64,000 nucleotides of DNA from Sporolactobacillus laevolacticus DSM 442. GTDB lineage: Bacteria; Bacillota; Bacilli; Bacillales; Sporolactobacillaceae. Shown piece after piece: positions 37,381 through 61,437 of the stretch (positions are counted from its first letter, which is position 1; every line of letters begins with the position of its first letter). The notes beneath the pieces are model-generated. The model was given only the letters and a program-made list of their open reading frames with translations, made no database searches and was not told the origin of the DNA. Position numbers and translations under genes: made by a program. Location: the NCBI RefSeq assembly GCF_000497245.1, contig NZ_AWTC01000015.1:1-64000 (forward strand). The letters are read 5' to 3'.

Positions 37381-38979
37381 TCAATCTTGTATTTGATTAA
37401 ACGTACTCAGTCTCAGATTTGTTAATTTAACAGTGGAAGCATCAGAAAATAAAGTGATTAAATCATCGTTCAGTTCTGAATTGATAACATCACTCATCAC
37501 ATACTTTCCATTATCGATAAACACTTCGACTGTTGTTTTATCTACGAACAACTGGACATGATGTACCTGTTGGTCATTCTTGGTCGCCCATTGATCATTT
37601 AGAACGGTTGTGCGTTCAAATCGCTTGAGATACTGATCAGGATTAGGGGTAGAAGATCGATCCAAATAAATCTCTTTACCATCGAATCCAAGCTCAACAA
37701 AACGTGTTCCGTCAGCCGATTGCCTGAAACGGATCCCTGCATGATTCGTATTTTTCGTTTGTAGGTTAAATGAAAGCTCATAGGAAACGCCCGTACCGAT
37801 TACTCTTGTCTTTTCCTTTGTTCCATTCACCGACTGATTAGGAAGCGTTTTTTCTGTTTTCGTGTACGCTTCAAGATTAGGGTTCGGCGCGGAGTATAAA
37901 TGATAACCTGTTCCTTCCTTTTTCAAATTGATCACGCGAACAAGAGAATCCGTTCCATTGAATCCTTCTTTTTCCCAGGTTACTGTGTTCGTGACATAAT
38001 CCCAGTTATTCATCCATCCGATTGCATAGCGATTGGTTAGTGGATCATTATCTTTACTGTAATTTTCCCATGTCACGCCCGCGTACCAGTCCCATCCTTG
38101 ATCAAGCCATTGCTCCTTCTCATTTATCGGACGAAAGGTTTTGCCATCGAAATTGCCGACCCAATAGGCATATGTGTTGGGCTCGCCGATGCTTTTACCA
38201 TTAGCACCTGTACCAAGGATCCAATGAATTGAACCATCATCCGCTTTCATTTGAAAAAGGTCAGGGCATTCAAATACACCAAGATTATCTTTCGAAAATG
38301 TTCCGGTCTTCTCCCAGTGAACCAGATTCTTAGATTGATAGAATCCGAGTTGATTACCTTCTGCTAACACCATGACCCATCGATTGTTTTCAGGATCCCA
38401 TACAACTTTCGGGTCTCTGAAATCTGTTTTCCCCGGATTGGCAAGAACGGGCTGCTGGCCGTAGGCCTTAAAATGTTCCCCGCCATCGATAGAGTAATAC
38501 AAAAACTGTGCCTGTGGGCGGTCCGGTTTTGTGGCATCTAGAGCGGTCACAATGCTGACCACCGCATTTTTTCCGAATCCAGCCGTATTTCTTTCATCAA
38601 CAACCGTTGATCCGCTCCAGATACTCTTTCCATCCGGAGCAAGCGCTTTTGGAATCGCATCCCCCTTATCTTGAAACGAGACAAGATCATTTGATTGAGC
38701 CAAGTGATAAGAAGTCCCAATGATATTTTTTGAATAATCTCCGTTGTACAGATAGTAAAAGTTGTAATGTCCATTCACATATACCGGACGCTGCGGATCA
38801 TTCATCCATTCACTAGGAACGGTAAAATGATAGGTTGGTCGATAATTGAGTTCAGCAGTGGAAGTGTTGGGATCGATATTTTGTTTGGCAACAGCGAGGT
38901 CAGGATGAGAAATTGTAAGGGACAACAGCAACACAGCTAAAATAATCGATATATGTTTAACCATATTCATGTGACTCAT
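37381..38979 (-). CDS. levB: Secreted endolevanase, GH32 (LevB-like)
   Basis: A 532-residue secreted GH32 enzyme with a signal peptide (about 1-31). Catalytic residues can be placed at Asp61 (EWMNDPQRPVYVNGHYNFYYLYN), Asp189 (FRDPKV) and Glu237 (ECPDLF). The sequence after the nucleophile, with YFYYLYNxDY-like and NDWDYVTN/WMNNWDY blocks, follows remembered Bacillus subtilis LevB closely; LevB cuts beta-2,6-levan to levanbiose outside the cell. The C-terminal beta-sandwich (from about 380) is complete. GAGGAGAG precedes the ATG. A cre lies 19 bases further upstream, after the terminator of the second GH32 gene, so it is probably separately transcribed and glucose-repressed. Confidence 0.86.
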   Translation of the reverse strand: MSHMNMVKHISIILAVLLLSLTISHPDLAVAKQNIDPNTSTAELNYRPTYHFTVPSEWMNDPQRPVYVNGHYNFYYLYNGDYSKNIIGTSYHLAQSNDLVSFQDKGDAIPKALAPDGKSIWSGSTVVDERNTAGFGKNAVVSIVTALDATKPDRPQAQFLYYSIDGGEHFKAYGQQPVLANPGKTDFRDPKVVWDPENNRWVMVLAEGNQLGFYQSKNLVHWEKTGTFSKDNLGVFECPDLFQMKADDGSIHWILGTGANGKSIGEPNTYAYWVGNFDGKTFRPINEKEQWLDQGWDWYAGVTWENYSKDNDPLTNRYAIGWMNNWDYVTNTVTWEKEGFNGTDSLVRVINLKKEGTGYHLYSAPNPNLEAYTKTEKTLPNQSVNGTKEKTRVIGTGVSYELSFNLQTKNTNHAGIRFRQSADGTRFVELGFDGKEIYLDRSSTPNPDQYLKRFERTTVLNDQWATKNDQQVHHVQLFVDKTTVEVFIDNGKYVMSDVINSELNDDLITLFSDASTVKLTNLRLSTFNQIQD

Positions 38980-39200: not shown

Positions 39201-40946
39201 TCATTTCTCCCAGATGCTTTTGAAATGTGAAGCGATCGCATGAGTGATCGCGACTTTTCCATTGCTAGCAAAGAAAGACAACTTCTTCGAATCAAGCGGA
39301 TGATCAGGATTTGGGTAGACAACTTGTGTCAGGACTTTTTCACCATCGTTTACAAACACTTCGATTGAAGACGTATCCACATAAACGGTTAGCTTCACGT
39401 TCGTTGGATCTCCCTCTAATTTCACTTTGCTATTTGACCGGCTGATATTTTCTCCATCGGTTGTTCGATCGATATATACCAACTGACTGCGTGGATCATA
39501 GCCAACCGTAATATACTTTGAACCATCCTCCGATTCTCTGAGATTGAATCCGAAACGATTCGGTTTCTTTTTATCCTTCCATGAAAAATCAGCGCTCACT
39601 TTATACTGTGTGCCCGAGAAATTGTTAATTTGAGACGTCTTATATATTTTTGAGGTGGCGTTTATTTTTCTGTCACCTAAAGAAATCGTCCCCTGACTAA
39701 GAGTGTCATCCACTTCACCAACAGGCTGCTGTTTCAGTACATAGCTGTCTCCTTGTTTTTCCAATGAAAGTTCTCTAGGCAGAGTCATTTCACCATGCCA
39801 TGGCGATGTCTTTTGTTCACCAACATAGGACCAGTTCGACATCCATCCCAGCATAATCGTGCGACCAGGCGTATTGCCAAAAGTGACTCCGGCATAGAAA
39901 TCTTCACCATAGTCCAGCCATTGTGGATTCTTCATTGTATCCTTTGTTTCAGGAATGAACGTCTTTCCATCAAAATTGCCGATAAAATACTGCATGCCTG
40001 AACCGCCGGCAGGTGCACCCTGTTGAACACTGATCGATAACACCCACTTCGTTTGGTTCGTTCCCTTAACCTTCATGGGGATCAAATCAGGACACTCCCA
40101 AACTCCGTTTCCAACATCATGTTCCCGTTTGATCGCCGATTGATATGTCCAATCCTTTAGGTTAGTTGAAGTAAAGATATCGACCTCCTGTCCGGATACA
40201 AGCGGCATCACCCACTGCTTGTTTGCTTCGTCATAAACTACTTTCGGATCACGGAAGTTGCCGGCATCGCTTGTCGGCACTTGAGTCACCGGGATCACCG
40301 GATTTTGATGGTTATATTTTGTAAAGGTTTTGCCTCCGTCCGTACTATAAGCCATATTTTGTTCCTGTACTTCTCGGACACCCAAATAATTACCCCATGA
40401 ATCTTTACTATAATCATCATCTCTAACAGCGACCTGGTAAGTACTTGTATAGTAAGCAATCAGTGTATTCTTGCCGAATCCCGCAACATTATCTTTATCC
40501 AAAATGACAGATCCGCTGAATATATACCGCTTCCCGTTTGGATTTCCAGCGTCCCAGTTTGTCGTCGGGCGCCCAATATAATGAACGGGTTTCGCGTCAT
40601 CCTTCGTCTTCATCCAGAAATCGACCCATGCATTGTCATCACTTTCCGGAATAGCTACAGGTTGTTCCTTCCAGTGAACAAGATCCGTACTTGTCGCATG
40701 CCCCCAGGTCATGTTGCCCCATTGATTGCCATACGGATTATACTGATAGAACATATGATAAACACCGTCATATTTGATCAATCCGTTCGGATCATTCAGC
40801 CAATTTTGTTGTGCCGAGTAATGGTATTGATCACGGTAGGGTTCTTGATAATAAGCATCTTCCGCCTTTGCCTTGGTAGATAGAACCGGCAAAGTAATGC
40901 CAAGAATTAAAAGCAGCGCGATCCATACCTTCACTATTTTCCTCAC
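39201..40946 (-). CDS. Secreted GH32 fructanase (levanase/inulinase/invertase type)
   Basis: A 581-residue secreted GH32 enzyme. Signal peptide ends at about residue 28 (TKAKA). Catalytic Asp52 is in NWLNDPNGLIKYDGVYHMFYQYNP, the transition-state Asp233 in FRDPKV and the acid Glu284 in WECPDL. A C-terminal beta-sandwich is present. The WLNDPNG form is that of exo-acting fructanases and invertases (SacC-like), in contrast with the WMNDPQ of the neighbouring endolevanase, so the pair may act in sequence: endo cutting, then exo release of fructose. It ends in SIWEK with no wall anchor. A strong cre overlaps the upstream region. Confidence 0.87.
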   Translation of the reverse strand: MRKIVKVWIALLLILGITLPVLSTKAKAEDAYYQEPYRDQYHYSAQQNWLNDPNGLIKYDGVYHMFYQYNPYGNQWGNMTWGHATSTDLVHWKEQPVAIPESDDNAWVDFWMKTKDDAKPVHYIGRPTTNWDAGNPNGKRYIFSGSVILDKDNVAGFGKNTLIAYYTSTYQVAVRDDDYSKDSWGNYLGVREVQEQNMAYSTDGGKTFTKYNHQNPVIPVTQVPTSDAGNFRDPKVVYDEANKQWVMPLVSGQEVDIFTSTNLKDWTYQSAIKREHDVGNGVWECPDLIPMKVKGTNQTKWVLSISVQQGAPAGGSGMQYFIGNFDGKTFIPETKDTMKNPQWLDYGEDFYAGVTFGNTPGRTIMLGWMSNWSYVGEQKTSPWHGEMTLPRELSLEKQGDSYVLKQQPVGEVDDTLSQGTISLGDRKINATSKIYKTSQINNFSGTQYKVSADFSWKDKKKPNRFGFNLRESEDGSKYITVGYDPRSQLVYIDRTTDGENISRSNSKVKLEGDPTNVKLTVYVDTSSIEVFVNDGEKVLTQVVYPNPDHPLDSKKLSFFASNGKVAITHAIASHFKSIWEK

Positions 40947-40976: not shown

Positions 40977-41397
40977 TTTTCATCACCGCTTATGCAACAT
41001 GATCCGTCAATCAAAAAATGATTTGCCCATCTCGTACTAAGCTCGAATAGCCCAGACTTCAGTCAACAGGCAGCTTACGTTTTCTCTGTGCGGACTATCC
41101 ATTTGATTTGTAGCAATTTTCGTTCCAGTTTGTGTGTCGTTTTCATATCGTTTGGTATCCGGCAGTAGCAATCCTGGTCCAAAGGGAAAAAGGAGCGGGA
41201 ATGGATTTCAGTATGGACAACCTTTTGGTCACTAAATCAAAAATACAAAACACTTAGCTTGTAAAATAGCACACTAACCGCCGAAATAAAGCGTTTTCAA
41301 AACACTGCCAGCTTCTAATAAAACACATTTTTGGTGGCTTTTAAGAAATTTCATATCTTTTCAGATCAGAATTTCACATCTGCAATAAAAAATCGAA

Positions 41398-41424
41398 TAA
41401 CCGCCTGCAAAGCGCAGGCGGTTA
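41398..41424 (-). terminator. Terminator of the GH26 gene
   Basis: Perfect TAACCGCCTGC / GCAGGCGGTTA (41398-41408, 41414-41424), minus-strand tail TTCGATTTTTTA. Confidence 0.75.
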
Positions 41425-41485
41425 CAAACTTAGCTATAATGCGGAATAGTGATCCGTGATATGAGGGACGACGTTACAAATTCTG

Positions 41486-42724
41486 TTATTTTTGCTGTGC
41501 GCGAAATTCTTTCGCAAAGAGTAAGTATTTATTCTTTCCATTTTTAAGATGTAAGTCATGAACAAAAGCGGATTGTATTTTTTTATTTCCCGTTATTCTC
41601 CAATCAACACGATTTCCTTTGGCTTCCATCTCTTTTTTCTTGATATCAAACCAATTGATCATCTTGATCTTAGGAAAGTGAACCGATAGGTCCAAGGCTT
41701 GTTTTGTATCACCGAAAGTATTAAAAACCTGATTCCACCAAGCACGCTTAATCGCAAGTTCACTTGCTCCTTTTTGCTTCGTGTTATAAAATGCAGCCGT
41801 TTCAGTGATCGCCATTGGTTTTTTATGGGTGCCGTCACTACAAAACAAAGCGTAAAAATCGGGTACCGCACTCATGTAGCCACCTAAGCCGTTATAATTA
41901 CCGGTGATATAATCGGTAAAACTTCTAGCCTCGGGCAATTCATTCTCGAGCCACGGATATTTATTACCCCAGTGATAGACGGACATTCCGACCCAATCAA
42001 CTGCATCATCCCCTGGATAATAGGGCGTGTACATATCGTCATGCATCGTTAATTTACCATTCTTGTCCGTATCGAGCACTGAAAAATCATTAGTGCCGCG
42101 TTTTGCTTCGTAAGGTCCTCCGGAAAATGGGTAACCACCGCCACTGTTTGGTGCCCAAAGCATGGCTGTATTTTGGGTTTTGGCGTGGATATATTTTGCC
42201 AGCGAACGAAATTTTTCCTTGTATAAGGTTGGTTGCTGACTCCAAGGATACCAAGAACCATTCATTTCATGAGCAAAACGCACCATAACACCAAGTCCGT
42301 GTTTTTCAATTTTCGCACAGAGCGCAGCAAAGTCACGATCGTCCTTCTTACTTATAGCTTTAAGTCCGTCTAAAGGTTCCAATGTAATTAATAAAATACC
42401 GCCTGTTGGGGCAATTTCTTTGGTTAAAGCATTTAACTTATCAATATCCTGCTGTCTCATTGGGAATTTAACAAAAGTCACATAAGAAGCCGGGGTAATG
42501 CCTATTTTTGCATCATAGCTGTGAATACTTTTCCTCGTGATATCATCTCTAACGATTCCAAAATAGATACCACGCTGAGGCTCGAGCGGTGCATACCCAT
42601 CTTTAATTTTTGTCATCTTTTTCGAAGATACTGACTGATCATCACTAGTGGTCTTTGGGTTTGAACATGCTGTGATGACAAAAGATAATAAAAGCACCAT
42701 GAAAAGTAAAATGGTTTTCTTCAC
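41486..42724 (-). CDS. GH26 family lipoprotein (beta-mannanase-like)
   Basis: A 412-residue lipoprotein. The signal peptide ends in the lipobox FVITAC (Cys20), so it is anchored on the outer membrane-facing surface. The GH26 core has the acid/base Glu153 in RFAHEMNGSWYPW and the nucleophile Glu308 in PMAITETAAF. Residues 218-229 (DTDKNGKLTMHD) fit an EF-hand-type calcium loop, placed inside the catalytic domain. Members cleave beta-1,4-mannan or related beta-glucans. It lies 147 bases downstream of a GT2-PilZ synthase on the same strand, with a terminator between them, suggesting a synthase plus hydrolase pairing as in cellulose operons (inference). Confidence 0.87.
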   Translation of the reverse strand: MKKTILLFMVLLLSFVITACSNPKTTSDDQSVSSKKMTKIKDGYAPLEPQRGIYFGIVRDDITRKSIHSYDAKIGITPASYVTFVKFPMRQQDIDKLNALTKEIAPTGGILLITLEPLDGLKAISKKDDRDFAALCAKIEKHGLGVMVRFAHEMNGSWYPWSQQPTLYKEKFRSLAKYIHAKTQNTAMLWAPNSGGGYPFSGGPYEAKRGTNDFSVLDTDKNGKLTMHDDMYTPYYPGDDAVDWVGMSVYHWGNKYPWLENELPEARSFTDYITGNYNGLGGYMSAVPDFYALFCSDGTHKKPMAITETAAFYNTKQKGASELAIKRAWWNQVFNTFGDTKQALDLSVHFPKIKMINWFDIKKKEMEAKGNRVDWRITGNKKIQSAFVHDLHLKNGKNKYLLFAKEFRAQQK

Positions 42725-42792
42725 ACTGATTCACCTCTACTGATTTGTATTTACTATTGGCCAACTCCGTATTCCTACACATTTACACGGTA

Positions 42793-42835
42793 ATAAACCG
42801 GGGAGAAAGAGGACATGTTTTTCTCTCCGGTTATT
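42793..42835 (-). terminator. Terminator between the GT2-PilZ and GH26 genes
   Basis: ATAAACCGGGGAGAAA and TTTCTCTCCGGTTAT (about 42794-42808, 42820-42834, one bulge) form a long stem. The minus-strand tail is TTACCG, not a T-run, so termination may be partial. Confidence 0.5.
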
Positions 42836-42871
42836 GGTTCTAAATAAAATTCAGATAAGCCTTGATTCAAT

Positions 42872-44719
42872 TTATTTCCCCGTGAAGGACAATGCTTCCG
42901 AATAGATAGGATTTGGAACTGTTCCAGCTTCAATCTCTTTCACTCTTGGAACATGAATATACAAGTATTCAACTAATGCATGGCGTGCGGATTGAGACAT
43001 CGATGAGATCTCAGATCCAACCATTTTGTTTCCCTGTTTTAAATGAGAAACGTGAAGAACATTAATGTTAAGAGTTACAGGACGATTCAAGTTTAGTTTT
43101 AAGGTAACCTGATCGGGCAAGTTGTATTCTGCAGGGATAACAAAGCCTGCACCATTCATCGACAAATTGGTTACTTGCACCGGTAGCGCATGTTTATTCC
43201 CCATTTTTATTGTCCCTCGTAATTCAAGAGGAAAACGATAGTCATTTCTCATATATTTACGGTTCAATACCGATAATATGGTAAATCCATACAACCCAGT
43301 ATTTAATAACACCCAAAATACTGCAGCCAGTGTATCTAGATCAGATAAATTAAATGCAAATGAGATTGATCCGTAAATAATGGACAGAGCACAAAAGAGA
43401 AAGCATACAAATAGCGGATTGAGCCGTATCATATCCTGCTTTTTCACTGAGACTTCCACAGTTTTCGGAGTGACTTTGAACTTCAGCTGTTTTTGTAATC
43501 CAGCGAAGAGTGTGGCACGAATAAATAAAAACATTTTTAGAATATTAAACCGTTCGACAGCGAAATACCTGAAGTATCCTCTTCCCGATGCAACATTGGC
43601 AATCATCCCAAGGACGAAATAAGGCAACCAGTAGTATAAAAATGTAATCGGGCTTACAGACATTGGCAATTGCCCGGACAACAAACACCAGGATGGAATA
43701 ATCAGGAATATAAGCTTTTGATATGAATCAAAATAGGTCCACATTGAAGCAAAATGGCTCAATCTCTGCTTCCAGGAAAGTCCAGGTAAAATCAAAGGAT
43801 TTTCTTTGCTGAAGAAAATCTTCATGCCTCCCTGAGCCCAGCGCAATCGCTGTACACTGAAAGCTGTTAAGGTCTGCGGCGCAATGCCATAGGCTAAGAC
43901 TTCATGATGATATTTTATTTTCCAGCCTTTCGCGTTTAGCCTTAATGACGTCTGAAGATCTTCAGTAACCGACTCAGTGGCCACCCCGCCAACATCCTCA
44001 AGTGCAGTTCTCCTCACAAGTGAAGGGCTTCCGCACCAGAATGGAGCACCGAGATTATTCTTTCCAGGCTGAATCACGCGATAAAACAGCTGCTGTTCAT
44101 GCCATGAAAAACGACTTGCAATATGTTGAACTGAATCAAGATTATAAAATTCTTGAGGAAGTTGAACGACAGAAACCTTTTCATCTTTAAAATAACCTAA
44201 TGTTTTATCAAAAAAATCAGGTTGCGGGACAGTGTCTGCATCGAATATTGCAATAATCTCTCCGTCCGTTTGTAATAAAGCGTGATTAATATTCCCCGCC
44301 TTTGCATGATCGTTATTTGGTCGGGTAATATATGCACAGCCCAAAGATTCAGCTAGCTTTCGTACTTCCGAACGTTTTCCATCATCAAGTACAAAAGTTT
44401 GATGGGGATAGGACATATTTTTACATCCGATTAACGTAGCTTCTAGTATTTCAATACTTTCGTTATAAGTGGGCACAAACACATCGACCTTAACAGGAGC
44501 ACTTGGCGGCAAGGGCTGTTCTTCTTTCAAACGCCATGTCATAAAAGAAAATAATAGAAAGTTCATGATTCCATGAGCTTCAGCTGCAAAAAAAACAATG
44601 GAAAAGATCATCGCAGCTGGATTGAAAGTTCCCAACCTCCACCAAAGATAATAGATGAGATAGATTCCCGTACACACCGTGATCGTGTGAATCCATAATT
44701 CTCGTTTCAAACGAATCAA
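42872..44719 (-). CDS. Membrane GT2 polysaccharide synthase with PilZ domain (cellulose synthase-like)
   Basis: A 615-residue processive family 2 glycosyltransferase. Membrane helices occur at about 11-60 and, after the catalytic domain, four to six more at about 330-480. The catalytic motifs are DDG (112-114), DAD (160-162), TED (252-254) and QRLRW (290-294), all intact, as in cellulose, curdlan and mannan synthases. The C-terminus (about 490-600) is PilZ-like with RNDYRFPLELRG and NLSMNGAG, the c-di-GMP-binding RxxxR and N/DxSxxG pattern. TTG at 44719 is the likely start, behind AGGAAAGG. It would extrude a beta-glycan under c-di-GMP control. No diguanylate cyclase is in the window. Confidence 0.87.
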   Translation of the reverse strand: MIRLKRELWIHTITVCTGIYLIYYLWWRLGTFNPAAMIFSIVFFAAEAHGIMNFLLFSFMTWRLKEEQPLPPSAPVKVDVFVPTYNESIEILEATLIGCKNMSYPHQTFVLDDGKRSEVRKLAESLGCAYITRPNNDHAKAGNINHALLQTDGEIIAIFDADTVPQPDFFDKTLGYFKDEKVSVVQLPQEFYNLDSVQHIASRFSWHEQQLFYRVIQPGKNNLGAPFWCGSPSLVRRTALEDVGGVATESVTEDLQTSLRLNAKGWKIKYHHEVLAYGIAPQTLTAFSVQRLRWAQGGMKIFFSKENPLILPGLSWKQRLSHFASMWTYFDSYQKLIFLIIPSWCLLSGQLPMSVSPITFLYYWLPYFVLGMIANVASGRGYFRYFAVERFNILKMFLFIRATLFAGLQKQLKFKVTPKTVEVSVKKQDMIRLNPLFVCFLFCALSIIYGSISFAFNLSDLDTLAAVFWVLLNTGLYGFTILSVLNRKYMRNDYRFPLELRGTIKMGNKHALPVQVTNLSMNGAGFVIPAEYNLPDQVTLKLNLNRPVTLNINVLHVSHLKQGNKMVGSEISSMSQSARHALVEYLYIHVPRVKEIEAGTVPNPIYSEALSFTGK

Positions 44720-45123: not shown

Positions 45124-48100
45124 TTATTTCTTCACATCTTTGCCCCAGACATAACCTATTTTCCCACTATAGACCACTTTATAATAGTATTTGCCCTTCG
45201 TCAGTACGATGATCTTGGTATTCTTTTTCAAATTCCTAATGACATGTGATTTCTTTGAAGCTGCTGAGTACAAGGTATGTTTTTTCGTAAGCTTTCCTGT
45301 AAACAAGGACTTGTTGATCGTTTTGCCCCAGACATAGCATTTCGCACCTTTATAACTGATCTTTATCCAGGAACCACTTTTCTGTCCTTTGACGGCCGTA
45401 CCTTTCGGAAGAGTGGCAACCTTCCGTGCTTTTGTCGAGGCCCCGACACGCACCGCCTGCTTTTGTGTGAGATAACCGGTGAAGGACGTCGCTTTGTCGT
45501 GCTTCACCTTCTTGTCGATCGTCAGCTGTACCATACTCAGATGCCAGAGTAGTTCAGTCTTGAGACTCCCGGAAGGTAGCTGATTGACCAGTGTCTGCGC
45601 AGCATCAACATCTTTCTGTGACTTACTCGATTCTGCCTTTTCAACTGCAGTCGTCGCAGCAATAAATCGATCTTTGGCTTGTTTGTTTATGAGCTGCTGA
45701 ACAGTATCTAATCGATCCGACAAACTATTTTTCACGCTGCCGTTTGCTAATTTATCAACTAAAGCTCGGGCATCGTTCAAATCACTCTGAAGTCTACTCG
45801 ATTCCGCTTTTACAACAGCGCTTGTTGCCGTACCTTCAGCGATCAATTCTTGAACCGCATCCAGACGCTTGAGCAGATTCGTCTTTACATCACCTGCTGC
45901 GAGTTTCTCAACAAGCGTATTGGCCGCGTCAACATCTGGTTGAGATTTGCTCGCTTCTGCTTTCTCAACAACTGCCGTCGCCGCTTGTTCAGCTTTAGCT
46001 GTATCAATAGCCTGCTGAACTGCCTTGAGTTTGCTGCTTAGATCCGCTTTTACCTGCGCATCGGCGAGTCGCTCAACCAGAGTTTGTGCCGCATCGACAT
46101 CACTTTGGGATTTGCTCGCTTCTACTTTGGCAACCGCAGCTTTGGCTTCTTCAACGGACGACGCAATGACGATTTGCACGTTATGTTCCTCTGATGCCGG
46201 AATACGTACATAGAGCGTACTCGAATCTGAGTCAAAATAATATCCTCTCTGATCCTGGTCGAGATCGTTCGCGTTCTTCTCTTTCGTAAAGCTCGCGCCG
46301 CCGGCTGTGATTGAATACGGTTCAGTTGTGCCATGTAGCTTGAGTGTATAGGACTTGATTTTTGAATCATAACCTTGCTTTGTTTTATTTTGTGCAAAAG
46401 AAATTATGTCTCCGTTTTTCTTCAGATCAAACTGTGTGGTATTGTACGCACCCTTTTGATAATTAAATGTTTCGCCGTCATCTTCGTAGAAGGCGCTCTG
46501 TGCCCCACTCGAAAGATACGTATCCAGAATCAGGTTTGTCAAAGGTTTTTCTTCGGTACTTTGTTGAACATCACGTGTCGGAATGATCGAGTCATCCTTT
46601 ACATAGATCGGCATAGTCCCCAAATCAGCATCACGTGTAATCGTCTGTCCCCCGTTATAGAACTTGCCGGTCCAGTAATCAATCCAGTTTGCCCCTTCAG
46701 GGAGATACACTTTTCGGCTCGTTTTTCCCTCTGAAACCACAGGCGCAACCATGATGCTATTGCCAAGCATGAACTGATCATTGATGTTGTACGTGTTTCC
46801 ATCATTCTGGAATTGATAGACCAGCGGCTGCTGAACAGGTGCACCTGTTTCAGAAGCAGTAATAAAAGCGTTATAGAGATACGGAAGCAGCTGGTAACGC
46901 AGGCTAATGTATTTGCGGGTGATGTCCTCAACTTGCTTGCCAAACTGCCATGGTTCCTGATCTTTCTTGTCAATCGAATAATGGTCACGTGCGAATGGTA
47001 CAAGCGAACCAACTTCAATCCAGCGGGCAAACAAATCAGGCGTTGCGCGCGGGCCGGCAAAACCGCCGATATCATTTCCTACAAATGGCTGCCCGGAAAG
47101 GCCGATGTTCCCGTTCATCGGAATACTCATGGCCAAGTGCTCCCAATCGCTCTGATTGTCTCCGGTCCAAATCGCAGCGTAGCGCTGAGTGCCGGCATAC
47201 ATGTCACGAGTAAGTATAAATGGCCGCTGATTCGGTTTCAGTCGCAGGTATCCGTCATAGGCGGCATGATTCTCTTCATGGGCAAAAATATTATGGAATT
47301 CGGCTGAGGTTTGATAGCCAAACACAACATCAAGCGGAGCCGTACCTCCAGGACCATTAAAAATCGACGGCTCATTCATATCATTCCAAATTCCGTCAAC
47401 ACCGGCGTTAAGAAGCGCCGACTGGTTATTGCCCCACCAGTTTCGAACCTCTTCTCTTGAAAAATCAGGGAATACGGAATCCCCTGGCCAGACGGTACCA
47501 TGAAAAACGGAACCATCCGGGTTTTTGGCAAAATAATTATTTTTAATGCCATCATAATAGACGGAGTAATTATTATCCGCTTTGACACCAGGATCAACGA
47601 TGGTCACGGCACGGAACCCTTCGTCCTTCAACGTTCTCAATACCTTCTTATACTGAGTATCCCAGGTGAATACACGGTATCCATTCATATAATTAATATC
47701 AAATACCATCGTATCTAACGGTATATTTTTGTCGCGATAAGTCTGAGCAACATTCAATAATTCTTCAGGTGTATAACCGTATTTGCTCTGTTGGAATCCG
47801 AGCGACCAGAGCGGTGGCTTGTTCATTTTACCCGTAAGATCGGTGTAGGTATTGAGCACATCCTGGATTTTCGGGCCATAGATAAAATAGTACGTCAGCT
47901 TGCCGCCATCCGCATAGAAATAGTAATAGCCATTGTTTTCACGAGCCATATCAAAATGCGACTTGTACGTATTGTCAAAGAAAATACCGTAGGCTTTCTG
48001 ATCTTTGAGTCCGATGAAAAACGGAATGGACGTATACAAACTGTCCGTGTTGTTGTCGTACCCATACGCATCGGTATTCCAAAGGGTCATTTTTTCTCCG

Positions 48101-48657
48101 TACTTATTCAGATTGCCTGCGCGTTCCCCAAATCCATAAAAACTTTCCCGATCACTTGGGTTCAGTTTCTTATAGACATAGGGCTTACCGTTATTGTCAT
48201 AACCGCTTCCTTTATCCATGAAATCTTCATTAATTACATTTCCTTGTTTATCCGTGTATTTCACACCAAAAGGCTTTTTGTTGATATAGATATTGATTTT
48301 ATCGGTAGCGAGCAAATAGGCGTCATCGCTCTCGCTGACCGTAAAATTCGGCGCGTTCCAATCTTTCTTCGCAATGCCCGGAGAAATATATTCTGATTCG
48401 CCTTTTTTTAAAACAGACACTTTGGACATCGTTGGTGTAAGCAAGCGAATGTATCCGTCATAGTTACTCCCGAGATCAAGCTTGATTCCGTCATTTTCTT
48501 TAGTGTACCCGCTGACGATTAATGGCGTTCGGCCATCTAAAGACAAGCCATCAGCGGAATCTGCATGTACACTGATCGGGCTGAGCAGCATTGGCAGCAG
48601 GAGCACTACGCTCAAAATCAGAGAAAGCATACTTTTGAACAGCTTTTTCTCAAACAT
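45124..48657 (-). CDS. Secreted GH31 alpha-glucosidase with helical repeats and SH3 tail
   Basis: A 1177-residue exported enzyme. The start at 48657 follows AAAGGGG by 7 bases; the longer frame has no site. Signal peptide about 1-33. Residues about 35-700 are GH31: nucleophile Asp426 in GIWNDMNEPS and acid/base Asp500 in IWTGDNQSDWEHL, so it should release glucose from alpha-glucans outside the cell. About 835-1048 hold four roughly 51-57-residue helical repeats (VEKAEASKSQxDVDAAxTLV ... VKTxLxxRLDxVQ). The last 129 residues are two SH3-type domains (GYVWGK ends) likely binding the wall. The same tail is on the neighbouring GH15 enzyme 78 bases upstream, and the two are probably cotranscribed. 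Confidence 0.88.
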   Translation of the reverse strand: MFEKKLFKSMLSLILSVVLLLPMLLSPISVHADSADGLSLDGRTPLIVSGYTKENDGIKLDLGSNYDGYIRLLTPTMSKVSVLKKGESEYISPGIAKKDWNAPNFTVSESDDAYLLATDKINIYINKKPFGVKYTDKQGNVINEDFMDKGSGYDNNGKPYVYKKLNPSDRESFYGFGERAGNLNKYGEKMTLWNTDAYGYDNNTDSLYTSIPFFIGLKDQKAYGIFFDNTYKSHFDMARENNGYYYFYADGGKLTYYFIYGPKIQDVLNTYTDLTGKMNKPPLWSLGFQQSKYGYTPEELLNVAQTYRDKNIPLDTMVFDINYMNGYRVFTWDTQYKKVLRTLKDEGFRAVTIVDPGVKADNNYSVYYDGIKNNYFAKNPDGSVFHGTVWPGDSVFPDFSREEVRNWWGNNQSALLNAGVDGIWNDMNEPSIFNGPGGTAPLDVVFGYQTSAEFHNIFAHEENHAAYDGYLRLKPNQRPFILTRDMYAGTQRYAAIWTGDNQSDWEHLAMSIPMNGNIGLSGQPFVGNDIGGFAGPRATPDLFARWIEVGSLVPFARDHYSIDKKDQEPWQFGKQVEDITRKYISLRYQLLPYLYNAFITASETGAPVQQPLVYQFQNDGNTYNINDQFMLGNSIMVAPVVSEGKTSRKVYLPEGANWIDYWTGKFYNGGQTITRDADLGTMPIYVKDDSIIPTRDVQQSTEEKPLTNLILDTYLSSGAQSAFYEDDGETFNYQKGAYNTTQFDLKKNGDIISFAQNKTKQGYDSKIKSYTLKLHGTTEPYSITAGGASFTKEKNANDLDQDQRGYYFDSDSSTLYVRIPASEEHNVQIVIASSVEEAKAAVAKVEASKSQSDVDAAQTLVERLADAQVKADLSSKLKAVQQAIDTAKAEQAATAVVEKAEASKSQPDVDAANTLVEKLAAGDVKTNLLKRLDAVQELIAEGTATSAVVKAESSRLQSDLNDARALVDKLANGSVKNSLSDRLDTVQQLINKQAKDRFIAATTAVEKAESSKSQKDVDAAQTLVNQLPSGSLKTELLWHLSMVQLTIDKKVKHDKATSFTGYLTQKQAVRVGASTKARKVATLPKGTAVKGQKSGSWIKISYKGAKCYVWGKTINKSLFTGKLTKKHTLYSAASKKSHVIRNLKKNTKIIVLTKGKYYYKVVYSGKIGYVWGKDVKK
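45514..46155 (-). repeat. Tandem repeats coding four helical modules in the GH31 enzyme
   Basis: Four units of about 153-171 bp in frame. Each encodes a two- or three-helix module with E-KAE-SK-Q--DV and VKT-L--RL---Q conserved. Related to the five units in the GH15 gene at 49106-49934. Confidence 0.75.
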
Positions 48658-48734
48658 AACGTAACCCCTTTCATTATTAAAAATGTTCATTATCTCAATA
48701 AGTCACTCATCAGCAGCTCAAACTTCAACGCGTA

Positions 48735-51700
48735 TTATTTTTGCTTAATATCTTTGCTCCAAACATAACCAACTTTTCCACTATAAACGACCTTATCCCA
48801 ATGCTTGCCCTTAGCCAGAACGTTGACGGATGTCTTCTTTTTTAAATTCTTGATCACGTGGGCACTCGATGAAGTTCCCGACCGAAAGGCATGTTTTTTC
48901 ACCAATAGTCCGGTAAACAAGCGTTTTTTGACATCGCTGCCCCAAACATAGCGTTTCTTGCCTTGATCGCTGATCGTTATCCATTTACCTGTTTTGAGGA
49001 CCTTTACCGCCGTTCCCGCTGGAAGCGTTTTGACAACCTTTGCGTGAATCGATGCCCCAGTGCGTACCGCGTGCTTTTTAATCAAATAGGCTGTGAAAAA
49101 TTTAAATGCTTTCTGTTCCGGTTTGATCGTTGCCTGAATCACAGCCAGATGCACAAGCAGTTCAGTTTTGAGACTTCCTGCAGGCAGCAGGTTAACACGC
49201 TTACGGGCAGTATCCACATTTTCGCGGGATTTGATTGATTCTGCTTTCTGAACGGCATCAACCGCTTCGGACACTGCCTTACGAAGATCAATCGCATGTT
49301 GAAGCTGATCTAATCGGTTTGTGAGCTTCGTTTTCACATCACCTGATGTTAGTTTCTCCACCAAAGTTCTTGCATGGTCAACATCTGTTTGGGATTTGCT
49401 CGCTTCTGCTTTCTCTACCGCACTCGTCGCCGCGCGTTCCGCATTATCCTTATCAATGGCGTTCTGGACCGCATCCAAGCGTTTGGTCAGATCCGTTTTT
49501 ACAGCACTATCCGCTAAGTTCTGAACAAGCGTTTCGGCTGCATCAATATCCTCCTGAGCTTTGCTCGCTTCTGCCTTCTCCACCGCTAGTGTTGCGACAT
49601 GTTCCGTTTTATTCTTATCAATGATGTTCTGGACCGCGTCTAATCGTTTGGTCAGATCCATTTTTACCAAACCATCTGCTAACTTCTGAACAAGCGTTTC
49701 GGCTGCATCGATATCTTCTTGAGTTTTACTTGCTTCTGCCTTTTCCGTGGCTTGCGTTGCTGCACGTTCAGCTTTATCTGTATCAATCGCATGTTGAACG
49801 GCATTTAGCCGATTGGTCAGATCTGTTTTCACCGCACCGTCTGCGAGTTCCTGAACAAGCGTTCGAGCCGTATCGACGTCATCCTGAGCCTTGCTAGCCT
49901 CCGCTTTTTCCACGGCTTGCGTTGCTGCAAGTTCTGCTTTGCTTGCCTGCTGATTGTAGTAGTCGTTAATGCCAAGGATGTACGACCCGGAGCCAAAACC
50001 GGCCATTGGCACAGAACCGGCGTAATCTTGCGTATTCCAGTCAAGCAGTTCCGGAATCAGATCATAATTCGCCGTAGCCTGGCTGGTCATCCAATCCAGC
50101 AAAGTCTTGCTTTGACTGTTGTTTCCCATTCTGGCAAGTGCGCCGGCGATTCTCAGATCAATAAATCCCCACTCTCGGGAATCATAGGTATCCCCGTCTT
50201 GATCGCGTTTGTATCCCGGGGTGCTGCCCGTAGTAATTCTCAGGTTGTTATCAAAGGCATTGATCATGCCCTTTGCCAGATCACTCGAAGGATCCACAAG
50301 GCCGAAGTTGATCGCTTCAACCGTTGAACCATCGTTAAATTTCAACGGATCACTTTTTCTCTCCAAAGAGGAAGCGATTGTCTGGGCACCATTCGTATCC
50401 ACAACAAAATGGTCCAAAATCGCTTTTTGCAGATTCACTGCATCTTGAGTATACTTAGCTGCGGATTCCGTATCACCTGCTAAACTGGCTAGATGTGCCG
50501 CAGACTTAAACCCTTGATAGGTCGTAATATTCGTATAAGCAAAATGCTGCCGAGCAGGTGCGTTTCCGATATTTTCAAATGGTTTCCAATGCTCTTCCCA
50601 AATTGAAGAATCCGGCTGCATCAATCCAGTATCTTTATCAATTAATTCTTCAAGCAGATCGGCGTCACGTGTTTTCAGCTTATGCCAGTAAGTGTTCAGG
50701 AAAGATGTGTCCCCGGTTGCTTTGACATATTGATCTGCGCCCCACAGAGCAAGACCCCATCCATCAAATTCAATATTTGGTCCGTTATTATTCCAGTCGG
50801 ATTCTTCAGTGCCGTTTCCGAAAAAGCGGCAAACAGAGATCAGATAATTATTGGAGAGATTCACGCCAAGACCATACGTTGGATCCGATTTATCCGTACT
50901 CTCGATAAATTTTTGCTGATAGTAATTCTCTCCGGACCCGTCATCCGCTTTTCTCATGTCGGCATTGAACATGAACTTAAGACCGTCCCGAGCCTCATCA
51001 TAATGTCCTGAATCGATAAGTGCTTGGATCGAGTAGATACCGTCTCGCGCCCAAGCAATACTCCATTCCCCAGGAATTAAGCTCGCCAGAATCTGCCCGT
51101 CGCTATCGCCCGTTTCTCTGGATTGTGCCATTTTTAGAACAGTCGTTGATTGTTTGTAGACGTGTTGCTCTTGATCGGACAAACCGGCAGGCATTGTTTC
51201 CTTGCTGTGCCAATCTGCCCACCAGTTCTCTTCTTGTGTCAACAGTGCCTCAGGACTGCTCCCGAGTGCGGGCTCTGCCAGCGACATAACATCGTTACTC
51301 AGATGATCTTCGTTGCCGTCTTCGGTCAGGCCAATAATCACGCCATACCATTTCGATTGACCGGTAGACAGGTTGTTTGCCCGGTTTTCATAGCCAACAG
51401 AAATGTCATTGGCTTTGTCAACAACATGATCGTCCAAGCGTCCTTTATATTTGGCATCAAACCAAGGATTACCATTCGTTCCGTCTCCAGAAGCCCCTGT
51501 TTCATGATGCTCTCCGGACAAATTAAGATTCTTGTAAATTGCTAAATGGCCGTTACTGCCGTTATATTCCTTTAAATAATCTTTACTTGAGTTATAAGAA
51601 GATTGTTCATTGTCCGTGTTGCCATCGGTGCCTAAATGCATGTTCTGCGTGGAAAAAATCGAAACCTCTTTATCTGTGTCGCTCGTATTCGTCACTTTCA

Positions 51701-52178
51701 TCAGCATCACGAGCATGTTCGACTGATATTTATTGTCTCCCGAAAAAGGTGTGAAGTAGTAGCTGCTAAATTCCAAGCCATTGTCTTTCTGAACGGCATT
51801 AATAATGTTGGTACCGTTTACATATTTGGCAGAATCAACATTCACATCGCTCAACCATGTCCCATTTCCACCATTCACACCATATCCAAAGTAGGAATCC
51901 CACATATAATTCTTTGTCGTTGTATTTTCGTCATAGTGGCTATAGATATGGGGTTGGTAGCGAATCAATTTCTTCTGATCCGCGGAGTAGATCGCAGCCG
52001 CAAGACCGTTTGAAGTAGTCAGCTGGTTCCATGATTTATGCCCACTATAATTCGGTGTTGCATTACTTGTTCCGTCCGCCTTAACCGTTGGCAGCCGGAT
52101 CGCCGACATCGATACAAAAACCGCAAGCGACAATAAAGCAATGAATAATTTCTTCGATATTTTGACGAATCGATTCAT
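48735..52178 (-). CDS. Secreted GH15 glucoamylase-like enzyme with helical repeats and SH3 tail
   Basis: A 1147-residue exported enzyme. Signal peptide about 1-34. Residues about 35-330 are the beta-sandwich N domain and about 340-745 the (alpha/alpha)6 barrel typical of bacterial GH15. The likely catalytic acids are Glu528/Glu529 in DSSIWEEHWKP and Glu710 in LIPELLDW. It should release beta-glucose from starch, dextran or related alpha-glucans. Five helical repeats of about 55 residues follow (749-1025), then two SH3-type domains (1027-1147, ending GYVWSKDIK). GGGAGGAT precedes the ATG. First gene of a pair with the GH31 gene; LacI-type operator candidates lie upstream. Confidence 0.86.
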   Translation of the reverse strand: MNRFVKISKKLFIALLSLAVFVSMSAIRLPTVKADGTSNATPNYSGHKSWNQLTTSNGLAAAIYSADQKKLIRYQPHIYSHYDENTTTKNYMWDSYFGYGVNGGNGTWLSDVNVDSAKYVNGTNIINAVQKDNGLEFSSYYFTPFSGDNKYQSNMLVMLMKVTNTSDTDKEVSIFSTQNMHLGTDGNTDNEQSSYNSSKDYLKEYNGSNGHLAIYKNLNLSGEHHETGASGDGTNGNPWFDAKYKGRLDDHVVDKANDISVGYENRANNLSTGQSKWYGVIIGLTEDGNEDHLSNDVMSLAEPALGSSPEALLTQEENWWADWHSKETMPAGLSDQEQHVYKQSTTVLKMAQSRETGDSDGQILASLIPGEWSIAWARDGIYSIQALIDSGHYDEARDGLKFMFNADMRKADDGSGENYYQQKFIESTDKSDPTYGLGVNLSNNYLISVCRFFGNGTEESDWNNNGPNIEFDGWGLALWGADQYVKATGDTSFLNTYWHKLKTRDADLLEELIDKDTGLMQPDSSIWEEHWKPFENIGNAPARQHFAYTNITTYQGFKSAAHLASLAGDTESAAKYTQDAVNLQKAILDHFVVDTNGAQTIASSLERKSDPLKFNDGSTVEAINFGLVDPSSDLAKGMINAFDNNLRITTGSTPGYKRDQDGDTYDSREWGFIDLRIAGALARMGNNSQSKTLLDWMTSQATANYDLIPELLDWNTQDYAGSVPMAGFGSGSYILGINDYYNQQASKAELAATQAVEKAEASKAQDDVDTARTLVQELADGAVKTDLTNRLNAVQHAIDTDKAERAATQATEKAEASKTQEDIDAAETLVQKLADGLVKMDLTKRLDAVQNIIDKNKTEHVATLAVEKAEASKAQEDIDAAETLVQNLADSAVKTDLTKRLDAVQNAIDKDNAERAATSAVEKAEASKSQTDVDHARTLVEKLTSGDVKTKLTNRLDQLQHAIDLRKAVSEAVDAVQKAESIKSRENVDTARKRVNLLPAGSLKTELLVHLAVIQATIKPEQKAFKFFTAYLIKKHAVRTGASIHAKVVKTLPAGTAVKVLKTGKWITISDQGKKRYVWGSDVKKRLFTGLLVKKHAFRSGTSSSAHVIKNLKKKTSVNVLAKGKHWDKVVYSGKVGYVWSKDIKQK
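49106..49934 (-). repeat. Tandem repeats coding five helical modules in the GH15 enzyme
   Basis: Five in-frame units with spacing close to 168, 168, 165 and 162 bp, judged by the recurring GCTTCTGCCTTCTC-type block at about 49899, 49731, 49563, 49398 and 49236. The three central units are very similar at DNA level, so unit gain or loss by recombination is plausible. Confidence 0.8.
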
Positions 52179-52772: not shown

Positions 52773-54542
52773 TTATTCGTGCATGCTGCGCAGCAGTTCG
52801 GTTTCTTCCCATAGAATTTTATTGTCTTCAATGACGACTCCGAATTCGGTCTTTGCACGATCCAATGAAATGTATTCATCGAGAACATCTGCGAGGACGG
52901 TCTCCGGATCGCGGGTGTATGGATCTCCATATCCGCCGCCGCAAGGACCAACAATCTCAAGTGTTTCGCCGGCATGTGTTTTTTTATACGGAACTTTCGA
53001 AGGCAGTGACGTTTCATTTCCCTCACTATCCCGAAAAATTAATTTGCTTGGCGTTCCATCATAGCCGCCGTCAAATCCCCACGGCGCATACTTTTGCCCT
53101 TCACCTTCTACAGAGAAGCCGCCTTCATCGGTAAATTCAATATCTCGGATCGGGCCGACACCTCCTCGGTATTTTCCTGATGCCGCGGCGTTATCTGGAA
53201 ACTCATATCTCGTCACACTGAGCGGATGGTGCGATTCAATATCTTCAATCGGGTTATTTCGTGTATTGGCGTAGAGTACATCAATGGCATCCATGCCGTC
53301 CCTTCCATAGCGTCCCCCGGAACTACCGGCCATGATATCCATATACACCCAATACTTTTTGTCAATCATGCCACTATAGGCGACCATGTATAGGTTACCG
53401 ATACCGGCACAAATTTGGTCGGGAACCGCCTGCCCTAAAGCACGCATGATCGTGTCCGCGAGTGCGTTCCCTGGGCAGAAGCGGGAAATGGTCGGTGCTG
53501 GATACGTCGGATTAACCAGTGTGCCTTCCGGAGCGATAATTTTGATTGGTTTAACGAGTCCGGCATTCTGGGGGATATAGCCGAACTTTTGTGAATCGAG
53601 CAAAATGGTCCGGATCGTTAAATATACGGCCATATCTGTAGTACCTGGAAAAGGCATGTTGATCGGACGATCATCGACTTGATCGGAAGTGCCGGTCAAG
53701 TCAACGATCATGTCATCCCCTTTAACGGTGAGATTGACGTTAAATTTCAAATCCTTACGTTTTGGATCCTGGCTGTCCAGATAGCCATCAATATACCCTT
53801 CCGAATGATAGGTGCCATCTGGAATTTTCGAGATTTCATGACGCAAGACGCGTTCAGAGTAATCAATCATATAATCCCGGGCCGCACGCACCGTTTCCAA
53901 TCCAAATTTTTCAACAAGTTCCAGATAGCGCTGCGCGCCGATTCGGCACGTCGCAATTTGTGCTTCCATATCTCCGACAACCATATCGGTTGCCCGCACG
54001 TTGTCCCGAATTAGTCGCCAAACCATATCCACCGGTTTTCCTTCCTCATACACCTTGATTGCTTTAAACTGCAAACCTTCAGCGAAGCAATCCACCGCAT
54101 CAATAATACCGATTGAACCTGGTGACAGAGCACCCAAATCCAGCTGATGCGCTGTCGAGCATGAAAAACCAACCAATTCATCCTTATAATAGACTGGTAC
54201 GAAAAATCCACAGTCGGGTTGATGCGTTGCACCGTAAAAGGAAGAGTTATGAAGAATCACATCACCCGGTTTGAAATCATAGCCTCTTTCTGCCATTATT
54301 TTGCGGATCCCTTGAAGATAGCCAGGAATCGGACCGGACTGCAGTGGCGTGCTATTCACCGATTCGCATAGCTGCTGTCCATGTTCGTCAAGCAGCGCAC
54401 AACCAAAATCATTCGATTCGCGGATGATACTTGAGTAGGACATCCGTGCCAGCTTGTGACCCATTTCGATCGCTATATTTTTCAGCGCTCCACTGAGTAC
54501 CTGGGCAGTGATTGGATCGATCGCTCTCTTCGTATCTACCAT
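52773..54542 (-). CDS. hyuB: Hydantoinase B / oxoprolinase family subunit
   Basis: A 589-residue subunit of an ATP-dependent ring-opening amidase (N-methylhydantoinase or acetophenone carboxylase-like). The family block ITAQVLSGALKNIAIEMGHKLARMSYSSIIRESNDFGCALLD is at the N-terminus, then HNSSFYGATHQPDC, and PTISRFCPGNALADTIMRALGQAVPD in the core. The ATG overlaps the hyuA stop as TAATG, so the two are translationally coupled. HyuB supplies the hydrolase half and HyuA the ATP-binding half. The native substrate may be a hydantoin, oxoproline-like lactam or, in this operon, a dihydropyrimidine (inference). Confidence 0.88.
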   Translation of the reverse strand: MVDTKRAIDPITAQVLSGALKNIAIEMGHKLARMSYSSIIRESNDFGCALLDEHGQQLCESVNSTPLQSGPIPGYLQGIRKIMAERGYDFKPGDVILHNSSFYGATHQPDCGFFVPVYYKDELVGFSCSTAHQLDLGALSPGSIGIIDAVDCFAEGLQFKAIKVYEEGKPVDMVWRLIRDNVRATDMVVGDMEAQIATCRIGAQRYLELVEKFGLETVRAARDYMIDYSERVLRHEISKIPDGTYHSEGYIDGYLDSQDPKRKDLKFNVNLTVKGDDMIVDLTGTSDQVDDRPINMPFPGTTDMAVYLTIRTILLDSQKFGYIPQNAGLVKPIKIIAPEGTLVNPTYPAPTISRFCPGNALADTIMRALGQAVPDQICAGIGNLYMVAYSGMIDKKYWVYMDIMAGSSGGRYGRDGMDAIDVLYANTRNNPIEDIESHHPLSVTRYEFPDNAAASGKYRGGVGPIRDIEFTDEGGFSVEGEGQKYAPWGFDGGYDGTPSKLIFRDSEGNETSLPSKVPYKKTHAGETLEIVGPCGGGYGDPYTRDPETVLADVLDEYISLDRAKTEFGVVIEDNKILWEETELLRSMHE

Positions 54543-56629: not shown

Positions 56630-56698
56630 ACCGTCCCATGCCTCCATCCACAATTAAAGGTTATTCTGATCCGCGGTCCACAAAAATTTACTAGACTT

Positions 56699-56815
56699 GG
56701 CATCTACTTTCTTTCGTTCGGTTCTACTTTTACTCCATTCGGTTCCACTTTTCCCGTATTAGGTTCTACTTTTGTTCGATTCGATTCTACTTTCTTCTTT
56801 TTAGGTTCTACTCTC
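56699..56815. repeat. 21-bp-period degenerate tandem array B
   Basis: Six units with ACT cores at 56706, 56726, 56747, 56768, 56789 and 56810, spaced 20 then 21 each. The plus consensus is GGTTCTACTTTT; the minus consensus is AAAAGTAGAACC, related to array A. Plus-strand translation gives heptads of the form GSTFxxx and minus gives KVEPNxx, but no start codon serves either frame. Confidence 0.8.
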
Positions 56816-56856
56816 GGGAAGCCTTAGTTGCGATTTACTCACTCTTAAATAGATCG

Positions 56857-57090
56857 TTATGTCCTTGATTCTTCCATTTTCTTTGTGCTTAACTGATTCG
56901 TTAAATATATTCTGGCATCCGGAGTGAGCAGGTGTAGGGTGGTGATACGCTCTTCATCTGTCTGATCTGCCAATTGAAAACTGACAAAGGCGCCGCTTAG
57001 ATTCTCTTTTACGCTCACAATCTTGCAATCATTCTGCAGCAGCATGTCAATTTCTTCTTTTTCTTTTAAAAAGAGCTCGTGTTCATGCAT
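56857..57090 (-). CDS. Small unknown protein in the pyrimidine operon (77 aa)
   Basis: A 77-residue cytosolic protein with no family that I recognise. GGGGG lies 7 bases before the ATG, inside the end of preA; the preA stop and this ATG are 3 bases apart, so it is translated with preA. Sequence: an acidic helix (ELFLKEKEEIDMLLQ) then alternating strands (CKIVSVKENLSGAFVSFQLA, EERITTLHLLTPDARIYL). This looks like a small alpha/beta fold. Its position between the ferredoxin-type subunit PreA and HyuA suggests an accessory or assembly role, which is inference only. Confidence 0.75.
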   Translation of the reverse strand: MHEHELFLKEKEEIDMLLQNDCKIVSVKENLSGAFVSFQLADQTDEERITTLHLLTPDARIYLTNQLSTKKMEESRT

Positions 57091-57093
57091 CGT

Positions 57094-58356: not shown

Positions 58357-58373
58357 GGAGATCCCCCCTCATT

Positions 58374-59720: not shown

Positions 59721-59766
59721 ACGAAAATCACCTCCATAATTCCGTATTCGTCATTTCATAAGACGT

Positions 59767-61308: not shown

Positions 61309-61437
61309 GCGAATTCCTCCTTAATTTGAGTGGAGTTGCAGATCAGCCATCAAAAAACTCGTCATGTTTATCTAATCATCTCTGTCAGAGCAAGCTTTTT
61401 TTAATATAAAATACGAAAGAAAAAAATCATTGCCAAA

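Follow-up and report, generated by a model that had tools for sequence, protein, structure and literature searches.

A BcsA-like GT2-PilZ synthase beside a lichenase-like GH26 lipoprotein in Sporolactobacillus laevolacticus: a candidate two-gene beta-glucan exopolysaccharide module

Introduction

In the genome of Sporolactobacillus laevolacticus DSM 442, a gene for a glycosyltransferase of family 2 (GT2) with a C-terminal PilZ domain lies upstream of a gene for a lipoprotein of glycoside hydrolase (GH) family 26, which raises the question of whether the two proteins act on the same polymer and, if so, which polymer that might be. The analysed stretch of 64,000 nucleotides (contig NZ_AWTC01000015.1, positions 1 to 64,000) is referred to here as the window. 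Its first-pass annotation had proposed a beta-mannan exopolysaccharide module under the control of cyclic di-GMP (c-di-GMP). Based on sequence comparisons and structural models, we cautiously favour a different product, with the pair forming a two-gene, synthase-dependent exopolysaccharide module that would make and trim a beta-glucan, perhaps of mixed linkage.

Systems joining a synthase to a hydrolase are already known (Bcs, Ccs), and the GH26 partner appears to be the new part. Our search of the literature found no publication pairing GH26 with a synthase of the PilZ or cellulose type. For the Wzx/Wzy route, a different pathway, the authors of a 2026 paper state that they know of no earlier characterised cluster containing GH26 (PMC13390465).

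Results and Discussion

Association of the synthase with GH26 across genomes

In distant bacteria, a GT2 of a distinct clade was found to recur beside a predicted membrane-anchored GH26, mostly upstream and in the same direction. The search of genome contigs with the GH26 protein, limited to the best 80 matches and thus no census, gave 79 loci, mostly from Actinomycetota, with a few metagenome-assembled genomes (MAGs) of Eubacteriales, Sulfuricaulis, Steroidobacteraceae, Verrucomicrobia, Deltaproteobacteria and Chloroflexi/Dehalococcoidia. A BcsA-like GT2 was present in the fetched flank of 22 of them (tblastn E <= 1e-10). It adjoins GH26 in four MAG loci of other phyla, L044 (with a BcsS gene in between), L045, L048 and L068. 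Among the 25 neighbour families listed for the GH26 loci, GT2 (19 loci) was the only large one crossing phyla; some regulator or dehydrogenase families of a generic kind, with 3-4 loci each, cross them as well. A family of 22 loci looks like open reading frames (ORFs) that run antisense to GH26 genes where the DNA is rich in GC.

To obtain a sample not drawn by GH26, 197 genomes of Actinomycetes (the class of genome G805) were searched with each gene separately, and 196 remained after omission of G805. GH26 was detected in four of these (E <= 1e-40) and GT2 in eight (E <= 1e-60), the eight including all four GH26 genomes (Fisher p 1.2e-6, uncorrected for kinship). In each of the four (G878, G930, G1008 and G1018) the GT2 lies upstream of GH26 on the same strand, and the matched parts are 0.8-1.0 kb apart, leaving room for a small gene between them. 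When plasmids were searched for members of the synthase clade with L068 and L084 as queries (E <= 1e-70), two ordinary BcsA proteins at 31% were returned and otherwise no match, so the reverse test of linkage rests on the Actinomycetes sample. Conserved linkage in relatives, on which the first-pass reading depended, is borne out by the 22 loci and the four genomes. The search in near relatives suggested there gave no pair within the window's own family and class, and the linked relatives belong to other phyla.

Several observations weigh against a functional pair. In 57 of the 79 loci GH26 has no GT2 in the flank, four of the eight GT2 genomes in the Actinomycetes sample lack GH26 at the threshold used, and the two genes of L068 are divergent instead of running in the same direction. 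The closest GH26 among the matches listed (L043, 65% identity) comes from a Eubacteriales MAG. Its fetched locus, which reaches the contig start after 702 bp of upstream sequence, contains no GT2, and no GT2 match was obtained in its draft genome, G804. Arthrobacter plasmids carry orphan relatives of the GH26, without a synthase. Furthermore, nutritional-looking GH32 and GH31 genes, assigned by Pfam, adjoin the pair in the window. The adjoining genes, the plasmid orphans and L043 would fit an alternative in which the GH26 serves nutrition, acting on mixed-linkage glucan from plants, and lies by chance beside an unrelated synthase in a saccharolytic cluster. Against it stand the same order and strand in all four genomes that had not been chosen by GH26, the adjacency in the four MAG loci of other phyla, and the genomes whose GH26 flank shows no GT2: 49 of them, covering 50 of the 57 loci, were searched, and 45 have a GT2 match, of whichever clade, elsewhere and four have none. 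We regard a nutritional GH26 as distinctly unlikely, and favour the module in which synthase and hydrolase belong together.

The orphan copies (48-49% identical) were seen on conjugative Arthrobacter and Paenarthrobacter plasmids (L031, L032, L034 and L035), including pAO1, and in AP018698 (L033) the GH26 gene is annotated as two ORFs. One record titled Vibrio cholerae strain 35D (L114) carries a GH26 resembling those of Arthrobacter agilis and is probably mislabelled.

Identity of the hydrolase

The GH26 protein groups by sequence, predicted fold and motif with the lichenase CtLic26A and with beta-1,3- and mixed-linkage xylanases. Its family and predicted lipid anchor, both proposed at first pass, hold: the Pfam model PF02156 recognises it above the cut-off (E 1.8e-8, 34.6 bits against 20.2), the HE acid/base motif (HEMNG) is present, and the lipobox FVITAC can be read directly from the sequence. 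All ten matches of a PDB sequence search were endoglucanase H, that is, the lichenase CtLic26A, or constructs containing it. With a profile of 37 GH26 sequences, the lichenase was matched at 2.6e-12, whereas the match to the first mannanase was shorter and reached 6.8e-8. For the structural model (mean predicted local distance difference test score, pLDDT, 87.3), Foldseek gave 4.4e-15 for the lichenase, 2.8e-14 for a mixed-linkage xylanase and 4.9e-12 for the first of the mannanases. By VIA the lichenase (25.4) is tied with a beta-1,3-xylanase and a mixed-linkage xylanase (26.3 each), and the best mannanase scored 22.8. The hydrolase ends the relevant strand in T-x-E-P and carries WYPW, as expected for the lichenase group; the motif HE.NG.WY.W occurs in 77 of the 79 relatives. 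Among 29 other GH26 matches, found by searching 151 genomes of the window's class and coming from 12 genomes, mostly of one family, WY.W is absent and W[FY]WW occurs in 27. The identity to CtLic26A, itself of the WYPW type, is 17-25%, and CtLic26A lacks the EF-hand insert in the aligned stretch. CtLic26A is a cellulosomal enzyme and is not known as the partner of a synthase.

The EF-hand-type loop noticed at first pass is real and is a conserved mark of this GH26 group, as judged from alignment. Its residues D218 and D229 are invariant in the alignment of 37 GH26 sequences, the window's included (A4). The strict loop pattern is found in 69 of the 79 relatives, compared with none of the 29 other matches, and the ten relatives that deviate from it retain a comparable stretch, in most cases with Thr as the third residue.

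These results bear directly on the polymer suggested at first pass, a beta-mannan made by a c-di-GMP-controlled synthase and cut by a GH26 mannanase. In its favour, all characterised beta-mannanases of a published GH26 tree fill its two large branches, which makes mannanase the common activity of the family; lichenases and xylanases fall outside both branches in that tree (PMC6556568). Sequence, profile and fold all rank the lichenase and the beta-1,3- or mixed-linkage xylanases ahead of mannanases, the motif is WYxW and not the W[FY]WW type, the synthase is of the cellulose-synthase type with the BcsA fold and CGS motif, and beta-glucan genes lie beside some relatives. The mannan reading was rejected on these grounds, and we consider it very improbable.

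Features of the synthase and its position in the tree

The processive GT2 motifs (DDG, DAD, TED, QRLRW and FKVTPK) and the C-terminal PilZ domain, the latter found by Pfam, are present as first annotated, and the motif set of BcsA/CelA (D, D, D, Q(Q/R)xRW, FxVTxK) is complete. The CGS motif is common to the synthase and BcsA. In the AlphaFold2 model (mean pLDDT 81.1, weak at residues 194-206, 420-423, 490-492 and in the tail), the best structural match is E. coli BcsA (9b8v, Z 39.0; c-di-GMP-bound 9fmz, Z 38.9), ahead of plant CesA (Z 26.4) and barley CslF6 (Z 22.6). Fold, PilZ and catalytic motifs are thus shared with BcsA, but the synthase scores 397.5 bits with the CelA model TIGR03030, under the curated cut-off of 699.1. 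The partners of BcsA are BcsB and the GH8 enzyme BcsZ. Here the hydrolase is GH26 instead of GH8, and no BcsB-like gene lies next to the synthase in the neighbourhood searched, where the neighbours are GH26, GH32 and GH31 genes. Elsewhere, the genome encodes another BcsA-like synthase with PilZ (G000:C4:242577-244235), which is distinct from this one and 805 amino acids (aa) long; its nearest row in the tree comes from a congener (L018).

The tree comprised 37 synthases and 350 columns and included 16 of the 22 GH26-locus synthases, six from Arthrobacter kin having been left out; in one of the synthase set, L051, about 8.6 kb separate the gene from GH26. The window synthase clusters with L068, L048 and L024 (support 99/98), where the L024 synthase ends near the contig end and its downstream neighbour is not visible. 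L044 joins these four (84/71), and 12 actinobacterial GH26-locus synthases join the resulting group (100/99). The GH26-linked synthases of this clade come from Chloroflexota, Myxococcota, Pseudomonadota and Actinomycetota. BcsA of E. coli and Cereibacter, the BcsA-like copies of congeners, and BgsA all fall outside it. Union of the PilZ-bearing set with the BgsA kin was rejected (p-AU, from the approximately unbiased test, 0.0009), and so was union with BcsA (p-AU 0.0056), both constraint sets having been chosen after the tree was seen. The GH26-linked verrucomicrobial synthase of L045 falls with BgsA, outside the window clade, so that a link to GH26 exists on the BgsA side too.

PilZ domain and c-di-GMP gating

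Both receptor motifs of PilZ, RxxxR and (D/N)xSxxG, are intact in the synthase. In CsBcsA, Glu371 locks the gate through a salt link with Arg580, as described in PMC10374906 and PMC5567048. This link is not retained, and Gln282 takes the place of Glu. The equivalent position is Glu in 27 of the 37 aligned synthases. None of the five PilZ subclade rows has Glu there; they read Gln, Gln, Asn, Ala and His, and five further rows outside the subclade have Asp, Tyr or Ile. Pfam finds PilZ in L044 and L048 but not in L068, where the motifs are present, and likewise finds none in L045 or in five actinobacterial proteins that were scanned.

A comparable case is the (1,3;1,4)-beta-glucan synthase system RiGT2/Cgs of Romboutsia ilealis (PMC10374906), likewise a single GT2-PilZ protein (637 aa) of a Gram-positive bacterium with no BcsB beside it and, from its description, with QRxRW, FxVTxK, RxxxR and NxSxxG. 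The Glu371 equivalent is replaced in both proteins, by Thr in RiGT2. As reported there, RiGT2 requires its PilZ domain, yet its activity is unresponsive to c-di-GMP, and no binding of c-di-GMP was seen. RiGT2 differs from the pair studied here in that its product is known and in that GH26 is not named in the main text of that paper.

Seven places in the S. laevolacticus genome encode GGDEF domains, so the signal itself is likely made in the host. The c-di-GMP control proposed at first pass agrees with the intact PilZ motifs, but the autoinhibitory Glu is lost; control of the synthase by c-di-GMP is plausible and may differ from that of BcsA.

The likely product

The product is most likely a beta-glucan, perhaps of mixed linkage, to judge from the lichenase-type GH26, the CGS motif, the BcsA fold and the beta-glucan genes near relatives. 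As a lead, we would rank mixed-linkage glucan first, plain beta-1,4-glucan second and mannan last. The known mixed-linkage glucan synthase BgsA of Sinorhizobium meliloti (PMC5567048) is a BcsA-like GT2 for a c-di-GMP-controlled exopolysaccharide and is represented in our set by L152, taken as BgsA since, with one of two possible starts, it fits all nine position groups that were checked from that paper. It is 36.3% identical to the window synthase over residues 65-419, but lacks PilZ and belongs to a separate clade. Arg at the position of RsBcsA 299 (Glu in RsBcsA) is named for CrdS, BgsA and CslF6 (PMC6821405). The window synthase has Gln210 there, and the PilZ branch as a whole reads Q, S, R, S, S; at a second position, mapped from the same paper, it has Gly219 where BgsA has Ser. 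These two residues speak against a BgsA-like product; as predictors of a mixed-linkage polymer they are neutral at best and may be unfavourable.

Alternatively, the same module could produce plain beta-1,4-glucan, as cellulose or acylated cellulose, with the GH26 as an endo-glucanase replacing BcsZ or CcsZ. The BcsA-like fold and CGS motif would suit this, the presence of Gly219 and the missing Arg at 210 are closer to what cellulose synthases show than to BgsA, and the nearest GH26 in the PDB bears the name endoglucanase H. On the other hand, the clade is distinct from proteobacterial BcsA, the CelA score is well under its cut-off, a further BcsA-like synthase is already present in the genome, and the ten nearest solved chains by VIA are beta-1,3-xylanase, mixed-linkage xylanase and CtLic26A. 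We hold plain beta-1,4-glucan to be unlikely, if worth serious consideration, and retain mixed-linkage glucan as the preferred product.

The relatives show two further neighbours of the synthase. A GH16 with a ricin-B lectin domain lies beside it, on the opposite strand, in L084 (5984-7312, Pfam-checked there), and this family is present in eight loci, seven of Arthrobacter kin and one of Oerskovia (L117). In Microbacteriaceae, a GH26-like domain is fused to an OpgC-type acyltransferase beside GT2 (L081:4597-7197, L082, and L109:12561-14918), recognised by Pfam in L081 and by similarity in the other two; the L081 fusion has an altered acid/base motif, RFAPDMNSTW, and keeps the EF-hand loop. 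OpgC modifies periplasmic glucans.

Gene arrangement and origin

Both ORFs were recovered exactly where the first-pass annotation had placed them (Table 1). Its remark that the hairpin between the genes lacks a T-run also stands. A terminator-like call was made for this hairpin on the opposite (+) strand and none on the sense strand, whereas the GH26 gene is followed by a 13-pair stem with a T-run, which makes read-through from the synthase gene into the GH26 gene plausible. The intergenic fold is mildly more stable than shuffled sequences (z -2.09; 8 of 200 shuffles equally stable).

Table 1. Positions in the window of the gene pair and its predicted features
Feature	Position	Strand	Basis or remark
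GT2 beta-glycan synthase, BcsA-like, C-terminal PilZ (predicted), upstream member of the pair	42872..44719	-	615 aa, TTG start
GH26 lipoprotein (predicted), lichenase-like group, downstream member of the pair	41486..42724	-	412 aa, GTG start
Intergenic region, 147 bp, hairpin 42796-42832 without T-run on the sense strand	42725..42871	-	
Intrinsic-terminator-like stem 3' of the GH26 gene	41397..41425	-	Terminator prediction
PilZ domain, residues 491-587	42959..43249	-	Pfam PF07238, E 2.3e-9; coordinates computed from the ORF
RxxxR motif, R491-R495 (R491NDYR495; c-di-GMP arginines)	43235..43249	-	Motif alignment
NxSxxG motif, N518LSMNG, residues 518-523	43151..43168	-	Motif alignment
Gln282 at the CsBcsA Glu371 position (autoinhibitory salt link)	43874..43876	-	Alignment
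Lipoprotein signal to lipobox cysteine C20	42665..42724	-	FVITAC read directly from sequence
Glu153, predicted acid/base of HEMNG	42266..42268	-	Aligned with CtLic26A HEANG; invariant in A4
Glu308, predicted nucleophile	41801..41803	-	Invariant in A4; role inferred
EF-hand-type loop DTDKNGKLTMHD, residues 218-229	42038..42073	-	Alignment and pattern

The pair was probably acquired, since it is absent from 14 congeners. GH26 was found in one of 26 genomes of the family, and hence in none of the other 25, 14 of them of the genus (E <= 0.001), and no GT2 of this kind was found in those 25 (E <= 1e-30), six congeners carrying BcsA-like copies at 30-42% identity to it. Among 398 genomes of the class the GT2 matched the window's own only (E <= 1e-90), and GH26 matched two others, partially and at 31-32%; among 398 genomes of the phylum the GT2 had two other matches, at 36% and 29% (E <= 1e-70). 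Viral contigs searched with the GT2 gave no match. For 13 congeners, none of the DNA matches listed lies between positions 40981 and 46087 of the window. The G+C content is 0.38-0.40 over 41-45 kb and 0.439 for the whole window.

The pair sits amid genes for secreted glycan enzymes (37381-38979, 39201-40946, 45124-48690 and 48735-52178), namely two of family GH32, one of GH31 that carries repeats and SH3 domains, and a protein of 1147 aa whose tail has a similar make-up of repeat and SH3. Further along, at 52773-62667, ORFs named by eye from the sequence resemble a cluster for hydantoin or pyrimidine breakdown, with hydantoinase A/B, PreA/PreT-like proteins, an NCS1 transporter and an amidohydrolase.

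Proposed mechanism and related systems

In the model we favour, the synthase would polymerise UDP-glucose at the inner face of the membrane and, with no BcsB, extrude the linear beta-glucan through a channel of its own. The lipid-anchored GH26 outside would cut the emerging chain, probably next to the 1,3 bonds in a beta-glucan of mixed (1,3;1,4) linkage, and could thereby set the chain length or free the chain, as is thought for BcsZ and CcsZ on cellulose. The calcium-type loop would probably keep the cleft in shape. PilZ would sense c-di-GMP, and with a gate devoid of the classical Arg-Glu lock the signal could be weaker than in BcsA or different. The first-pass idea of a polymer made and trimmed at the surface is in this respect supported by the combination of a synthase with a surface-anchored hydrolase.

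Such a combination of GT2-PilZ synthase and cognate hydrolase in Gram-positives has a counterpart in the clostridial Ccs system, although its hydrolase CcsZ belongs to GH5; mixed-linkage glucan is described as a five-fold better substrate for CcsZ than carboxymethylcellulose, as judged by activity (PMC7710045). No CcsB-like or acetyltransferase-like gene was seen among the neighbours of the pair, to which this search was confined. WpsE of Actinoplanes likewise places a GH26 within an exopolysaccharide cluster, but there the polymer is assembled by the Wzx/Wzy pathway (PMC13390465).

Conclusions

More tentatively, as a possibility that we would not yet call probable, the pair and its relatives could represent an unnamed exopolysaccharide family spanning several phyla, composed of a distinct GT2 clade and a membrane-anchored, lichenase-type GH26 with a calcium loop. 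Its product might be a mixed-linkage or new, possibly acylated, beta-glucan. The PilZ branch, having lost the autoinhibitory Glu, could respond to c-di-GMP by another route, and the Actinomycetota branch would do without PilZ. If this is true, beta-glucan exopolysaccharide systems of this kind, served by a hydrolase family of their own, would be widespread in bacteria whose matrix sugars are poorly known, such as Arthrobacter and its kin, some Bacillota and Chloroflexota. It would offer a defined pair for testing how a cognate hydrolase matches its polymer, as well as a naturally occurring group of PilZ synthases that lack the classical lock on the gate, in which the question raised by RiGT2, where PilZ is needed and c-di-GMP is not, could be tested in a second lineage.

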